Source of the DNA: Dokdonia sp.
Lineage (GTDB): Bacteria; Bacteroidota; Bacteroidia; Flavobacteriales; Flavobacteriaceae
Direction of reading: 5' to 3'
DNA: 64,000 nt
NCBI GenBank assembly: GCA_020630915.1
Contig: JAHDIF010000008.1
Location: 1 to 64,000 of the forward strand
How positions within the stretch are numbered: the first letter of the stretch is position 1; each line of letters starts with the position of its first letter. Below the pieces are notes generated by a model. The model saw only the letters and a list, made by a program, of their open reading frames with translations. It had not been told where the DNA came from and did not search any database. Shown one piece after another: positions 1-46,260 of this stretch. The translations under genes were made by a program, and so were the position numbers.

Positions 1-50
1 GCAGCTGATTTGTAATCAGCAGGTCGTGGGTTCGAGTCCCTCCATCGGCT
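1..50 (+). tRNA. tRNA-Thr (anticodon TGT), 5' end cut by window edge
   Basis: The 3' two thirds of a tRNA. The anticodon arm has stem GCTGA/TCAGC and loop TTTGTAA, giving anticodon TGT at 11-13. The T arm contains GGTTCGAGTC, and the 3' acceptor strand CATCGGC plus discriminator T ends at 50. CCA is not encoded. It is the first of four clustered tRNAs upstream of tuf. Confidence 0.93.
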
Positions 51-107
51 CTTTAAAAATCCTTGAAAAAGGCGGTTCTTTAAAATATTGATGAATACCA
101 AAATAAT

Positions 108-189
108 GGGGAGATACTCAAGCGGCCAACGAGGACGGACTGTAACTCCGTTGACTATGTCTTCGCAGGTTCGAATCCTGCTCTCCCCA
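108..189 (+). tRNA. tRNA-Tyr (anticodon GTA)
   Basis: An 82-nt class II tRNA with a long variable arm. The acceptor stem is GGGGAGA/TCTCCCC. The anticodon stem ACGGA/TCCGT encloses loop CTGTAAC with anticodon GTA. The T arm contains GGTTCGAATCC. CCA is not encoded. Second tRNA of the cluster before tuf. Confidence 0.96.
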
Positions 190-256
190 CTTTTAATCTC
201 CGTGTAAACGGAAATTCTAAACACCTTTAATTCTGTTGTAAAATTGGATTATAAAA

Positions 257-329
257 GCGGGAGTAGCTCAGTTGGTAGAGCGTCAGCCTTCCAAGCTGAA
301 TGTCGCCGGTTCGAACCCGGTCTCCCGCT
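257..329 (+). tRNA. tRNA-Gly (anticodon TCC)
   Basis: A 73-nt tRNA with acceptor GCGGGAG/CTCCCGC, D arm containing AGCTCAGTTGGTAGAGC, anticodon loop CTTCCAA (anticodon TCC) and T arm GGTTCGAACCC. CCA is not encoded. The spacer to the next tRNA carries a GCTTTCGCGAAAGC palindrome. Confidence 0.96.
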
Positions 330-353
330 CAATAAATGCCTTTGAGGTATTGA

Positions 354-367
354 GCTTTCGCGAAAGC
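354..367. repeat. GCTTTCGCGAAAGC palindrome, intergenic copy
   Basis: Perfect 14-bp palindrome in the 50-bp spacer between tRNA-Gly and tRNA-Thr(GGT). One of 13 exact copies in this window. As it lies inside a presumed polycistronic tRNA precursor it could form a 6-7 bp hairpin in the RNA. Confidence 0.9.
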
Positions 368-379
368 GTAAACACAAAA

Positions 380-451
380 GCCGACGTAGCTCAGGGGTAG
401 AGCGTTTCCTTGGTAAGGAAGAGGCCACGGGTTCAAATCCCGTCGTTGGCT
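380..451 (+). tRNA. tRNA-Thr (anticodon GGT)
   Basis: A 72-nt tRNA with acceptor GCCGACG/CGTTGGC (one G-T pair), anticodon stem TTTCC/GGAAG enclosing TTGGTAA (anticodon GGT), and T arm GGGTTCAAATCCC. CCA is not encoded. It lies 108 bp before tuf, so co-transcription with tuf is likely. Confidence 0.96.
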
Positions 452-465
452 CAATAAAAAAAATA

Positions 466-488
466 GGAGTGGGGTCACACTCCCTTTT
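466..488 (+). terminator. Hairpin with short T-run after the tRNA cluster
   Basis: GGAGTG (466-471) pairs with CACTCC (478-483) around a 6-nt loop and is followed by CTTTT. It is a weak intrinsic terminator, attenuator or processing hairpin between tRNA-Thr and tuf. The stem is only 6 bp, so partial read-through into tuf would be expected. Confidence 0.4.
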
Positions 489-559
489 GTCGTTAATCAA
501 AAGGTAAAAAGACCAAAGAGATTAGACACTAATAATAACTAAGATTAAAAAATCACATC

Positions 560-1747
560 ATGGCAAAGGAAACTTTTGACCGCTCGAAGCCGCACTTAAA
601 CATCGGTACAATTGGGCACGTAGATCACGGTAAAACTACACTTACTGCTGCGATCACTACAGTACTTGCAAACGCAGGTTTATCAGAACTGAGAAGTTTT
701 GATTCTATTGACAACGCTCCTGAGGAGAAAGAAAGAGGTATTACAATTAATACATCTCACGTTGAGTATGCAACAGCAAATCGTCACTACGCGCACGTAG
801 ACTGTCCAGGTCACGCCGATTATGTGAAGAACATGGTAACTGGTGCTGCTCAAATGGACGGTGCAATTCTTGTTGTAGCGGCTACAGATGGTCCAATGCC
901 ACAAACTCGTGAGCACATCCTTTTAGGACGTCAGGTAGGAATTCCTCGTATTGTAGTATTCATGAATAAAGTGGATATGGTAGATGATGAAGAATTACTT
1001 GAGCTTGTTGAGATGGAGATCAGAGATCTTTTATCTTTCTATGAGTACGATGGTGACAATGGTCCTGTAATTGCTGGATCTGCACTTGGAGCACTTAATG
1101 GTGAGCAAAAGTGGGTAGATACAGTAATGGAGCTTATGGATGCTGTAGATGCTTGGATCGAAGAGCCAGTACGTGATACTGAAAAGGATTTCTTAATGCC
1201 TATCGAGGATGTATTCTCAATTACTGGTCGTGGAACTGTAGCTACAGGACGTATCGAAACTGGTATTGCAAACACAGGTGATCCTGTTGAGATTATCGGA
1301 ATGGGAGCTGAGAAATTAACTTCTACAATTACTGGAATTGAGATGTTCCGTAAGATTCTTGATAAAGGGGAAGCTGGAGATAACGCTGGTATCCTATTAA
1401 GAGGTATTGAGAAGACTCAGATCTCTCGTGGTATGGTAATTACTAAGCCAGGATCTGTAACTCCTCACGCTAAGTTTAAGGCAGAGGTTTATATCCTTAA
1501 GAAAGAAGAAGGTGGACGTCACACTCCATTCCATAATAACTACCGTCCTCAGTTTTACGTACGTACAACTGACGTAACTGGAAACATAGCACTTCCTGAT
1601 GGGGTTGAAATGGTTATGCCTGGAGATAACTTAACGATTACAGTTGATTTAATTCAGCCTATCGCGTTAAACTTAGGATTACGTTTTGCAATCCGTGAAG
1701 GAGGTAGAACTGTAGGTGCAGGTCAGGTGACTGAGATCCTAGACTAA
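560..1747 (+). CDS. tuf: Elongation factor Tu
   Basis: This GTPase delivers aminoacyl-tRNA to the ribosomal A site. The 395-aa length is normal for the family. The G1 loop GHVDHGKT is at residues 19-26, followed by the switch I region with RGITIN, then DCPGH and NKVD, so all G motifs are intact. Domains 2 and 3 are complete, ending in [15 protein letters not shown]. The ATG at 560 gives the canonical start [20 protein letters not shown]. The gene lies between tRNA-Thr and tRNA-Trp, an arrangement also found beside tufB in Proteobacteria. A long hairpin follows the stop codon. No Shine-Dalgarno is visible, as is normal for Bacteroidota. Confidence 0.99.
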
Positions 1748-1771
1748 GCTTAAATAGATATTCAAAAAGTA

Positions 1772-1802
1772 AAGGTGTTTCGCTTCAAAAGCGGAACGCC
1801 TT
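1772..1802 (+). terminator. Strong hairpin downstream of tuf
   Basis: A 14-bp stem (1772-1785 with 1789-1802, two G-T pairs) closes on a CAA loop. It is extended outward by CAAAAAGT (1763-1770) against ACTTTTG (1804-1810). The flanking A and T tracts suggest a terminator or RNase processing site separating tuf from tRNA-Trp/secE. Confidence 0.6.
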
Positions 1803-1868
1803 GACTTTTGTTAAAGGGAGATGCGCTTGTTGAACTTTCGTGAAAGCGTATTACCTTAAAAATAATAA

Positions 1869-1941
1869 ACGGGTTTAGCTCAGTTGGTAGAGCACTGGTC
1901 TCCAAAACCAGGTGTCGGGAGTTCGAGTCTCTCAACCCGTG
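1869..1941 (+). tRNA. tRNA-Trp (anticodon CCA)
   Basis: A 73-nt tRNA with acceptor ACGGGTT/AACCCGT and discriminator G. The anticodon stem CTGGT/ACCAG encloses CTCCAAA (anticodon CCA), and the T arm contains AGTTCGAGTCT. CCA is not encoded. It lies only 15 bp before secE, consistent with one transcript. An imperfect palindrome copy (ACTTTCGTGAAAGC) is just upstream at about 1834-1847. Confidence 0.96.
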
Positions 1942-40003: not shown

Positions 40004-40414
40004 ATGCTTTCGCGAAAAACTAAATACGGTCTCAAAGCCCTTACCTATATTGCTCGTAATATAGACAAGGAAACTGTACTCATTCAAGAAATCGCAGAAG
40101 CTGAAAACATCTCCCGTAAATTTTTAGAAAGTATTTTATTGACTTTGCGTAAAGCAGGTTATTTGGGCAGTAAAAAAGGAAAAGGAGGTGGATATTATCT
40201 TATTAAAGATCCTGTAGATATTAAAATGGCAGATGCCATTAGAATTCTAGAAGGTCCCATTGCTCTCTTACCCTGTGTAAGCCTTAATTTTTATGAGCGA
40301 TGTGATGACTGTCCAGATGAGACTGCTTGTAGTCTTCACGTGCTTATGGAAGAGGTAAGAGACAGCACACTTAATGTTTTGGAAAATAAAACATTAGCAG
40401 ATTTGGTGATATAA
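40004..40414 (+). CDS. Rrf2-family transcriptional regulator
   Basis: A 136-aa winged-helix regulator. DNA-binding half MLSRKTKYGLKALTYIA...NISRKFLESILLTLRKAGYLGSKKGKGGGYYL (1-66) is typical of Rrf2/IscR/CymR. The C-terminal half has Cys91, Cys100, Cys103 and Cys109, enough for an Fe-S cluster or redox switch. A near-palindrome copy (GCTTTCGCGAAAAA) covers codons 2-5; MLSRKTKYG is also the natural family start, so this may be coincidence. Its regulon is unknown; CysK/CymR- or IscR-like roles are possible. It follows ctlX. Confidence 0.9.
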   Translation: MLSRKTKYGLKALTYIARNIDKETVLIQEIAEAENISRKFLESILLTLRKAGYLGSKKGKGGGYYLIKDPVDIKMADAIRILEGPIALLPCVSLNFYERCDDCPDETACSLHVLMEEVRDSTLNVLENKTLADLVI

Positions 40415-40451
40415 TTTTTTTAATCACCTAGTAGATTTGTGGGAAATTGAT

Positions 40452-40459
40452 TATCTTTA
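40452..40459 (+). promoter_or_regulatory. Promoter-like -7 element before the candidate RNA
   Basis: TATCTTTA lies 17 nt upstream of the 5' arm of the long closing helix at 40476. Expected transcript start is near 40466. No protein-coding gene follows on this strand, which supports a non-coding product. A TTTG at 40436 is closer than the standard -33 spacing. Confidence 0.4.
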
Positions 40460-40465
40460 TTGTAG

Positions 40466-40645
40466 AAAACAGTTTAAGCGAACTGGTGTCAGTATTTTAA
40501 GATGAATAAATTAGTTGTGTTTGTAGTTTTCGCAACTAGTCATTTGAACTTTCAAGTTCAATATTCAAAATTGAGGTTACATTTTTTTAGTAGGATTTAA
40601 AAAGAAACCATAAACATCTTAAAGACATCACGTTCGCTTTTTTTG
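40466..40645 (+). ncRNA. Candidate stand-alone structured RNA, about 180 nt
   Basis: Three helices close a domain: 40476-40483 with 40632-40639 (8 bp), 40485-40490 with 40624-40629 (6 bp, one G-T) and 40496-40504 with 40615-40623 (9 bp, perfect). Inside are hairpins 40512-40519/40531-40538, 40545-40550/40555-40560 and a weaker one at 40575-40578/40606-40609. The 3' strand runs into a T-run (40638-40644), as in an intrinsic terminator, and a -7-like box lies upstream. The size resembles 6S RNA, but three side hairpins are not its classical shape. Not identified; a MITE-like inverted-repeat element is the alternative. Confidence 0.6.
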
Positions 40646-40658
40646 TTTCTATACTTTT

Positions 40659-42089
40659 CTAATGCTTTTGAGTCGCAATATTCTTGAGCATCCCGTCAAA
40701 AATGAAATAGTGAAATGGTAACATACTATACCAGTATAGCCGGCCTCTTAAACCTCTAGGTCTAAATGTTGCTGTTTGGTGCAGCACATTGTTATTATCT
40801 ATTTTAAATTCTAGCCAGGCCTCGCCAGGCACACGCATTTCTGCAAAGAGAAGCAAACGTTTTTTGTCTTTATCTGCCAGAAGTACACGCCAGAAATCTA
40901 AAACATCACCAGAAAATATTTTATCAGGATGCGTGCGTCCTCGGCGCAGACCTACACCGCCAAACAGTTTGTCTACCCAACCTCTTATTTTCCAAAGCCA
41001 GTTTCCGTAATACCATCCTTTTTTGCCGCCTATGGACCAGATGTTTTCAAGGGCAAGATCGGGATCTGACAATTGTATTTTTTGTTTATCAAAAACACAT
41101 CCGTATGTAGGTACCTGTATGTATTCGTTTAGATTGTATTTAAGTCTTCCACTTACGAGGCTGTCTTTCCAGGAGCTAGTTACTTGGTTTTGTTCTATTT
41201 TATCAAACGCCATTTCTATACTTTCTGCATAGCTTATGGGTTGTATGTTTAGCATTTCGCGCAAGCGGTTGTCTTTTGTAACTACTTCAATTCTCATACT
41301 GTCTACCAGATTAAGCGCTAGTTTATAGGTGGTAGAAGTTATAAAATAAAGCCAGTATGAAGATAATTTTGGAGTCATGACCGGTACTGTAAAGATGTAT
41401 AATTTGAGATTACGCACTTTTGCATACCCGAGCATCATTTCTTTATATGTGAGGATATCTGGACCGCCTATATCAAAAGAGTCCTGGTAACATTCTTTCT
41501 TACCTAATACGCCTTGTAAGTAGTGCATCACGTTACGTATGGCAATAGGTTGACATCTGGTGTTCACCCACTTTGGGGTGATCATTACAGGAAGTTTTTC
41601 GCAGAGATCACGAATAATCTCAAAGGAAGAGCTTCCTGAACCTACAATAATACCTGCTCTTAAAACTGTGAGAGCAGCTTTTCCTTTTTTAAGGGTTTCT
41701 TCTACGTTTTTTCGAGACCTTAGATGCTTACTTAGATTATTTTCATTTACAATACCACTAAGATAAATTACTTGTTTGCAATCTGTCTGGTCTAGATAGA
41801 TATTAAAATTTTGAGCAGACAGTGCCTCTTTTTCATCAAAATCTGTGGTGGACGAACTCATAGAGTGTATGAGGTAATACGCTGCATCTATATCTTTAGG
41901 AATATGATTCTTTTTGGGAGTTTCCAGAAAATCTATTTCTATTACCTCTATTTGTGCTCTAACTTCTGGACTTACAGAAAGTCTATTAGTGTCCCTAACC
42001 GCACAAACAATTTCGTGGCCAGCTTGCAAAAGGAGTGGTAATAACCGCATTCCAATATAACCGTTTGCACCCGTGAGAAGTATTTTCAT
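40659..42089 (-). CDS. NAD(P)-binding SDR-family protein with C-terminal DUF2867
   Basis: A 476-aa protein. The N-terminal atypical short-chain-dehydrogenase fold (1-300) starts MKILLTGANGYIGMRLLPLL with the GxxGxxG cofactor loop. The C-terminal part (about 310-476) has the DUF2867 pattern (ENIWSIGGKKGWYYGNWLWKIRGWVDKLFGG, then ADKDKKRLLLFAEMRVPGEAWLEF). Function unknown; related proteins are sometimes annotated as nucleoside-diphosphate-sugar epimerases but lack that chemistry's support. It follows a small conserved hypothetical by 5 bp. Confidence 0.8.
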   Translation of the reverse strand: MKILLTGANGYIGMRLLPLLLQAGHEIVCAVRDTNRLSVSPEVRAQIEVIEIDFLETPKKNHIPKDIDAAYYLIHSMSSSTTDFDEKEALSAQNFNIYLDQTDCKQVIYLSGIVNENNLSKHLRSRKNVEETLKKGKAALTVLRAGIIVGSGSSSFEIIRDLCEKLPVMITPKWVNTRCQPIAIRNVMHYLQGVLGKKECYQDSFDIGGPDILTYKEMMLGYAKVRNLKLYIFTVPVMTPKLSSYWLYFITSTTYKLALNLVDSMRIEVVTKDNRLREMLNIQPISYAESIEMAFDKIEQNQVTSSWKDSLVSGRLKYNLNEYIQVPTYGCVFDKQKIQLSDPDLALENIWSIGGKKGWYYGNWLWKIRGWVDKLFGGVGLRRGRTHPDKIFSGDVLDFWRVLLADKDKKRLLLFAEMRVPGEAWLEFKIDNNNVLHQTATFRPRGLRGRLYWYSMLPFHYFIFDGMLKNIATQKH

Positions 42090-45630: not shown

Positions 45631-46260
45631 TTGATGAAAACTACTTTTGTTCTAATACTTGGATTTTGTACAAATCTTTTATCTCAGAATCCAACATTCA
45701 AAATTGATAGCCTTCTTTTTGAGAGAATGACTCATATAGATGCTGAGACTATTGGATTTACCAGAGAGTCTTGTACAGGATTTGGAGTAAACTCTTCTGG
45801 TTATCTTTTTTTTACAGTGGACTCAATAAATTATTTGCAAAAATATGATTTTCAGGAATATCCCAAAGAAGAACTAATTGTTTATCAAAGCGTCAGGTTG
45901 GACGATAACAAATTGTTTAATCTTATTTCTTCAAACCGAAAAAAAATAAAGCGTGATAAATCAATTAGGGCGTTTGCTGTTCAAACTATGGATGAAAATG
46001 AAAATGGAGTATTTAGTACTTGGAAGCCAATGACTTCTCATTCGTGTTATCGTAGAATATATTTAAAGACCAATAAGCGCAAACTCGATAAGAAGTTTAA
46101 TTACTTCGATTTAACCTATTCCTTAGGGGGAGCTGAAGATTTGTTAAATATCAACTATCGATTTAATAGGGCTAGACATATAGTTCAGATTGATTCCATA
46201 TTGAATAATTGGACTGAACGATTAGACCATTCGGAAAAATTTAAAGTGATTAAAGATTGA
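45631..46260 (+). CDS. Secreted protein of unknown function
   Basis: A 209-aa protein with a likely signal peptide (MMKTTFVLILGFCTNLLSQ). No family is recognised. It contains two Cys in the mature region (ESCTGFGV and SHSCYRRIYL), compatible with a disulfide. The gene stands alone between two clusters of hairpin repeats and has lower GC than the flanking typA, so recent acquisition or fast evolution is plausible. ATG 45631. Confidence 0.6.
   Translation: MMKTTFVLILGFCTNLLSQNPTFKIDSLLFERMTHIDAETIGFTRESCTGFGVNSSGYLFFTVDSINYLQKYDFQEYPKEELIVYQSVRLDDNKLFNLISSNRKKIKRDKSIRAFAVQTMDENENGVFSTWKPMTSHSCYRRIYLKTNKRKLDKKFNYFDLTYSLGGAEDLLNINYRFNRARHIVQIDSILNNWTERLDHSEKFKVIKD

Follow-up and report, generated by a model that had tools for sequence, protein, structure and literature searches.

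A putative new family of structured non-coding RNA with two invariant elements in the genus Dokdonia

The intergenic space between rrf2 and a convergent SDR gene in the window (the whole stretch of DNA analysed, 64,000 nucleotides in length) raises the question of whether it harbours a gene of its own. The initial annotation had proposed a structured, trans-acting RNA of approximately 180 nt in this space, leaving 6S RNA, a flavobacterial RNA family and a transposable inverted-repeat element as possible identities, and had considered the region to be free of any coding gene. The last point is borne out by the rrf2 stop at 40414 and the end of the convergent SDR ORF at 40659, between which lies the candidate RNA gene (40476-40639, + strand, 164 nt). 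In all likelihood the RNA is real and represents a new RNA gene. With regard to the neighbouring regulator, profile search places the Rrf2 protein over the cut-off for the Rrf2 superfamily, while CymR is its best equivalog, far under the cut-off (81.1 of 195 bits). The features of the locus are listed below; the boxes were compared with the flavobacterial -7 consensus, given as TAnnTTTG in PMC9723704.

40004-40414, + strand: rrf2 (Rrf2 regulator), an ORF
40427-40443, + strand: imperfect dyad CCTAGTAGATTTGTGGG, like the CCTA-N9-TAGG upstream of cysH operons beside rrf2 (position weight matrix, PWM, score 9.5)
40432-40439, + strand: alternative -7 box TAGATTTG (6/6 consensus letters), inside the dyad
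40452-40459, + strand: -7-like box TATCTTTA (5/6 consensus letters), the box of the initial annotation
40476-40490, + strand: 5' strand of the outer closing helix (8 + 7 bp), from fold and covariation
40476-40483 with 40632-40639, + strand: outermost part of the closing helix, 8 bp, AAGCGAAC with GTTCGCTT, from the fold
40484-40490 with 40624-40630, + strand: middle part of the closing helix, 7 bp, TGGTGTC with GACATCA, C40631 being unpaired
40496-40504 with 40615-40623, + strand: inner closing helix, 9 bp, its 3' side being CATCTTAAA, from fold and covariation
40510-40540, + strand: arm A, a covarying stem and loop with TGTTTGTAGTTTTC at 40518-40531, from fold, covariation and 15/15 identity
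40544-40561, + strand: arm B, a hairpin variable in length and sequence, from the fold and the homologue folds
40575-40609, + strand: arm C, comprising a GGTT/AACC outer stem, an invariant A-U stem and a UAGGAU hexaloop, with TTTTTTTAGTAGGATTTAAAAA at 40582-40603, from fold and 15/15 identity
40615-40639, + strand: continuous 3' strand of the closing helix, CATCTTAAA-GACATCA-C-GTTCGCTT, from sequence, fold and covariation
40638-40644, + strand: T-run, with the closing helix a probable intrinsic terminator, from sequence
40659-42089, - strand: SDR/DUF2867 gene, an ORF convergent with rrf2

The plus strand folds at -50.7 kcal/mol as compared to a shuffled mean of -29.95 (z -5.78; none of 200 shuffles as low), and the minus strand gives a z of -3.88. 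The long closing helix drawn by the initial annotation across 164 nt was recovered with its 8-bp and 9-bp parts, the middle part having 7 bp instead of the 6 counted; the three internal hairpins, the continuous 3' strand entering the T-run and the upstream box at 40452-40459 were all seen as it had described them. The minimum-energy fold contains, in addition, an extra 3-bp hairpin between arms B and C. The 15 homologues (13 distinct sequences) fold alike into the three-arm shape, with z from -3.9 to -7.7 (100 dinucleotide shuffles each). A T-rich stretch lies 3' of the helix in 15/15 homologues (interrupted in G001), and a -7-like box with 5 of the 6 letters of the consensus (as given in PMC9723704) is located 5-25 nt upstream of the helix in 15/15, which is weak evidence in AT-rich DNA. 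Transcription would start at one of the two -7-type boxes (40452-40459 or 40432-40439) and stop at the T-run after 40639, which would yield an RNA of approximately 180-200 nt. Since the match at 40432-40439 is full, the initial annotation may have placed the 5' end too far downstream.

Identification of homologues relied on synteny together with a covariance model; BLAST at a loose limit gave some match in all 59 whole genomes. Model R1, built from 13 sequences, detected the RNA at 124.5-153.4 bits in 15 of these 59 genomes, all among the 18 belonging to the window's genus (Dokdonia), and in one copy per genome in every carrier. In the window's own genome the RNA is likewise single-copy by BLAST, the next match covering 23 bases with an E of 0.025. 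The initial annotation had looked to related genomes for a decision, and these hold the RNA in 15 of 18 cases with its synteny kept. Beyond the genus, scans that sample evenly from larger groups under stricter filters (and could miss weak or unsampled homologues) returned few matches: R1 over 397 family genomes gave four at E up to 0.1, namely two carriers and two others at 32.3 and 32.1 bits, while R2 over 395 order genomes gave the same two carriers and two matches at 27.9 and 26.7 bits.

The four matches other than carriers were rejected as homologues. L133 (32.3 bits) shares part of its length with an ORF on the reverse strand, L134 (32.1 bits) is contained in such an ORF, and with R2 they drop to 23.9 and 22.6 bits, respectively. 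L182 of G718 (27.9 bits) runs across the starts of two ORFs, is devoid of loop A and folds differently; L183 of G526 (26.7 bits) has loop A- and arm C-like parts within a 586-codon same-strand ORF, which we read as a probable NADH dehydrogenase subunit, with a z of -1.26 and the RNA fold absent. L020 of G022 was also rejected, as it matches part of arm C only (BLAST E 7.6e-6; with the models 19-20 bits across 18-23 positions) and coincides in part with the end of an ORF on the other strand. Within the genus, L027:1501-1523 of G005 displays 22 of 23 arm C motif letters without loop A or the closing helix (26.0 bits with R1, 22.1 with R2). All of these weak matches, L027 included, are taken as chance. 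At the rrf2 loci of other genera no RNA was found (77 of 80 loci searched, the three left out being from Dokdonia; best 19.6 bits, E 1.5). Similarly, the viral contig search revealed no contig with both exact motifs, the plasmid search gave no match, and nine phage records match partly, none over 80% of the query (24% covered at E 0.5 in the five matches listed). As far as searched, the RNA family is confined to one genus.

Selection on the structure was assessed in alignment A4 (15 sequences, 13 distinct, 45 pairs), which was fitted to the structure. In A4, 85.8% of cells were paired as against 75.8% in shuffles, and double-sided changes were seen in 24 pairs and 71 cells, for which shuffles gave 16.2 and 28.5. 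The covariation score amounted to 0.370, as compared to 0.183 for the shuffles, which ignore relatedness, and 0.091-0.179 for controls slid by 1-3 columns, which account for it. Further pair types (49 vs 44.1, reached by 24 of 500 shuffles) constituted the weakest covariation measure. Alignment A3, based on a model without the inner closing helices, gave 83.8% paired cells, 20 pairs and 60 cells changed on both sides, a score of 0.319, and a number of further pair types that 108 of 500 shuffles attained.

The contributions of the individual helices in A4 differ. Double changes were observed in 9/13 pairs of the outer closing helix, 8/9 pairs of the inner closing helix (71.8% of its cells paired) and 5/9 pairs of arm A. 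Arm C shows none in its outer stem (0/4 pairs) or its inner stem (0/8), 7 of the 8 inner pairs being invariant; arm C as a stem is thus without covariation support, since variation is missing from the inner stem and double changes from the outer. The initial annotation had named covariation in three helices among its tests; the closing helix and arm A show it, arm C does not, and arm B was outside the structure used in the test. In the closing helix and in arm A, as comparison of the homologues shows, pairing has been preserved through compensatory changes.

Apart from the helices, two stretches are identical in 15/15 genomes, namely TGTTTGTAGTTTTC (14 nt; loop A plus the pairs that close it) and TTTTTTTAGTAGGATTTAAAAA (22 nt; arm C), even though pairwise identity of the RNA among homologues has a minimum of 0.53 and a median of 0.61. 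The invariance of arm C is partly ascertainment, since many of the first BLAST matches rested on arm C; that of loop A is less affected. As the closing helix and arm A compensate while these two stretches are fixed letter for letter, the RNA is shown by this comparison to be under selection as RNA, and the drift of helices by compensation beside undrifting runs suggests a binding partner that reads the fixed letters. A small protein or leader peptide was considered as an alternative and rejected: a VFVVF or MFVVF frame passes through loop A in 15/15 homologues, ends after 9-27 codons and has no common continuation, and the invariant run shows no variation at third codon positions. Furthermore, the spacing between loop A and arm C varies between 58 and 75 nt and takes all three phases, and the longest ATG ORF comprises 32 codons in the window's genome (G000) and 2-23 in the other homologues. 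Judged by the lack of a conserved coding frame, the RNA is non-coding.

The gene very probably specifies a working RNA that is regulatory or protein-binding. In the mechanism preferred here, the closing helix would clamp a three-arm platform displaying loop A (UGUUUGUAGUUUUC) and arm C, the latter presented as an A-U stem with a UAGGAU hexaloop, and the two elements together would dock a conserved RNA-binding protein for sequestration or as a scaffold. Protein docking is preferred because compensatory drift affects the closing helix and the arm A stem but leaves both elements letter-identical, even where they form a helix; that the two fixed elements form such a docking site is a tentative reading, at slightly less than an even chance.

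A base-pairing, trans-acting sRNA is conceivable, with a chance of about one in three by our estimate. Its U-rich seeds, in loop A and in the 5' half of arm C, would pair with A-rich mRNA leaders and change their translation or stability, as proposed for Rfp18. The stand-alone gene with a probable terminator would suit such an sRNA, as would the fixed loops, which are usual for sRNA seeds. So would the size: according to PMC9723704, the Rfp sRNAs of Flavobacterium psychrophilum have a median length of 176 bp and some are conserved outside the species. Compared by this description, Rfp sRNAs such as Rfp18 resemble the present RNA as stand-alone structured sRNAs in Flavobacteriaceae, but the present RNA has no homologue above 32.3 bits outside the genus in 397 family genomes.

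The search for pairing partners argues against an sRNA of this kind. The antisense test considered one exact 13-nt complement per invariant run; in the own genome such complements occur solely at the RNA gene itself. Relatives contain 9 and 11 extra matches, which rarely share flanks (only L201/L203 and L225/L226/L230 do); L201 and L225, the two examined, lie inside ORFs, and no recurrent antisense partner was found. For the start regions of 43 window genes, duplex energies were no better than for internal coding sequence, the sample being small and of low power. In addition, the invariant 8-bp stem does not provide an open seed. A protein is favoured over an mRNA as the partner because the complements are present only at the RNA gene and start regions are not preferred; an mRNA partner with short seeds (7-9 nt) is made less likely, though still conceivable.

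Could the sequence instead act only in cis, as a structure for long-range termination or for processing that lies between rrf2 and the adjacent gene and has no function of its own? Its position between convergent genes in the window and its terminal T-run would fit such a role, but the wider gene order renders it very improbable. The RNA adjoins ctlX in 15/15 carriers. It persists where rrf2 is not between ctlX and the RNA (G001, G006, G008, G009 and G013; rrf2 is elsewhere in the latter four and was not found in G001) and where the SDR gene is elsewhere (G007, G011, G012, G014 and G015), and in G014 the RNA is followed by a same-strand argS. The contig of G016 breaks off 108 bases past the RNA, too early to reveal the position of the SDR gene. 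Since the RNA stays by ctlX without rrf2 or the SDR gene, it is tied to neither flanking gene. A terminator, moreover, would have no need of invariant runs of 14 and 22 nt, and G004 manages without the RNA at this very site: ctlX, rrf2 and the SDR gene are side by side, with 13 bases from the rrf2 stop to the SDR match.

The RNA is dispensable, as it is absent from G004 (complete, 99%) and from G010 (93% complete, with rrf2 and the SDR gene on separate contigs). Its absence from G005 (78%) is uninformative, for rrf2 and the SDR gene have no matches there either. In the SDR protein tree, G004 and G010 are nested among carriers with good support (99/99), a placement that favours loss of the RNA in both over late gain; the branch joining the two is weak (70/48), and the SDR proteins of the five-genome lineage discussed below fall outside the Aquimarina rows, where the tree may not follow species. 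The stand-alone structured RNA of about 180 nt put forward by the initial annotation is upheld by compensatory changes, single-copy synteny and a lineage-restricted distribution, and by these comparisons the locus is very probably a stand-alone non-coding RNA gene of a new family; its action in trans is presumptive.

Known RNA families do not account for it. Rfam 15 at gathering score gives five matches in the whole window, all tRNA (window 1-1941 holds five tRNA genes, one truncated by the window edge, and is otherwise ordinary). Near the RNA region, at E up to 10, it gives five sub-threshold matches (E 1.3-8.3); thus the RNA reaches no Rfam 15 family, the 6S models included. The flavobacterial RNA family left possible by the initial annotation stands as such a family, albeit not one that Rfam 15 recognises. 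Weinberg et al. reportedly described Flavo-1 and other motifs, some of them flavobacterial, in 2010; those motifs, like the present RNA, were found by comparison of intergenic regions. The five matches obtained in the RNA region at E up to 10 do not include Flavo-1, which we take to be in Rfam. Literature searches on Dokdonia sRNAs and transcription start sites, on Rrf2/CymR and sulfate assimilation in flavobacteria and Bacteroidetes, and on flavobacterial structured or 6S RNAs yielded no title on the present RNA.

The remaining identities are hardly tenable. A divergent 6S RNA could be argued from size, from the closing helix and from RF00013, which is over the cut-off in 0/18 same-genus genomes, but 6S-Flavo (RF01685) is present at a different locus in 17 of the 18 (over the cut-off in 8), the window region matches neither RF00013 nor RF01685 over the gathering cut-off, and three arms are unlike 6S RNA, a binder of RNA polymerase and template for pRNA, which forms a rod with one large central bubble. 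In the own genome the 6S-Flavo match is at C10:7444-7551 with 92.2 bits (cut-off 85 bits); as this is another contig, the present RNA is not the genome's 6S, and the 6S possibility raised by the initial annotation falls. The two RNAs share the character of a flavobacterial small structured RNA of similar size class (the RF01685 model has 108 positions) and differ in locus, the present RNA being multibranched, with two invariant stretches and without a match to the model. As a side observation, 6S-Flavo matches of 63.3-84.9 bits occur in nine same-genus genomes (L145-L153), six of them within 0.3 bits of the 85-bit gathering score, and the Rfam cut-off of RF01685 may be too strict for the genus.

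A MITE or other mobile inverted-repeat element would explain the long terminal inverted repeat and the clean absence in G004, but this possibility, too, is next to nil given a single copy in each of the 15 carriers and in the own genome, where the runner-up match spans 23 bases (E 0.025), the same ctlX-side site in 15/15, changes that preserve pairing, and the viral and plasmid results above; the transposable element suggested by the initial annotation is contradicted by this single copy and constant synteny. CsrB/RsmZ-type RNAs sequester protein, and the CsrA site is a GGA in a loop; the UAGGAU hexaloop, which shows AGGA, resembles such a site and shares the idea of a protein-binding decoy, but a sponge of this type has a negligible probability, for the fold has just one GGA hexaloop. 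CsrA was also rejected as a partner: PF02599 is over the cut-off in 0/18 genomes, with one weak 15.8-bit match in G014, while as a control the same search is over the cut-off in 3 of 14 named genomes.

Regarding possible control of the RNA, the dyad upstream was compared with those at other rrf2 loci. In the best 80 rrf2 loci of a larger set, 47 have DUF2061/cysH within 1.5 kb downstream (the DUF2061 and PAPS reductase domains were confirmed at rrf2-cysH loci), and CCTA-N9-TAGG is situated between rrf2 and that operon in 32 of the 47. Among the other loci it occurs in 3/33, identified by position as L040, L041 and L043 from Dokdonia, in each of which the RNA comes next; mononucleotide shuffles of all 80 whole loci contain 8.25 such dyads (spacer 9 or 10). 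From rrf2 to DUF2061-cysH in L038-L117, the dyad approximates CCTA(C/G)TAAnYCGATAGG in the 32 loci (for example L070:2966, L083:3054 and L107:2990). On the basis of this recurrence, the CCTA-N9-TAGG-type dyad is probably the operator of a flavobacterial CymR-like Rrf2.

Upstream of the RNA, a TCCTA-N9-TAGGA dyad is found 25-28 nt before the helix in G007, G011, G014, G015 and G016; over all carriers the dyad is exact in 5/15, G000 and G012 have an imperfect version, and in the remaining eight it is missing or reduced to a half. A PWM constructed from the 32 sites scores 12.2-20.7 in these five (scores reached by 0-1 of 1000 mononucleotide shuffles), 1.3 in G012 (43 of 1000 shuffles as high) and detects nothing in the other eight. 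The window dyad is the best site in the 100 nt upstream of the RNA (2 of 1000 mononucleotide shuffles as high) and only the fourth best on both strands of the window; the higher-scoring sites, at 46154-46170 (19.8), 40744 and 37473, are all in ORFs, and the false-positive rate of the matrix is therefore visible. As the arms of the matrix are exact by selection and the five dyad genomes are one lineage, the dyad upstream of the RNA is just a lead: the RNA may belong to the Rrf2 regulon, or the dyad may be a relic left behind rrf2. The RNA promoter in the five-genome lineage may answer to the adjacent Rrf2/CymR-like regulator, with the odds somewhat against it. In G013, G009, G008 and G006 (L178-L181), ctlX and rrf2 are separated; the dyad lies after rrf2, with DUF2061-cysH also following in L179, and the RNA stays by ctlX without a dyad.

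A more specific proposal, which we regard as improbable, would make the RNA a genus-specific sulfur-limitation riboregulator, switched by a CymR-like Rrf2 via CCTA-N9-TAGG, in which loop A and arm C would form a U*A-U triple helix and the hexaloop would be offered to a dedicated protein. Docking of the U-rich loop A as a U*A-U triple helix would explain why the arm C stem never covaries.

The locus adds a well-supported structured RNA family, unrecognised by Rfam 15, to marine flavobacteria, in which sRNA biology is thin. The genus includes single-contig genomes (G004, G006, G008, G009 and G017), and the naturally RNA-free G004 offers a comparison. The dyad common to one lineage and to sulfate-assimilation operons points to a concrete condition for study, namely cysteine or sulfate limitation, while the two invariant stretches provide exact letters for mutation.

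One further observation concerns arm C and the dyads. Within invariant arm C, TTAGTAGG (window 40587-40594) is the reverse complement of CCTACTAA, with which the cysH dyad of many other genera is built on its left half. In L178-L181 the dyads begin with CCTAGTAA instead, so that any pairing with arm C there would have a mismatch.
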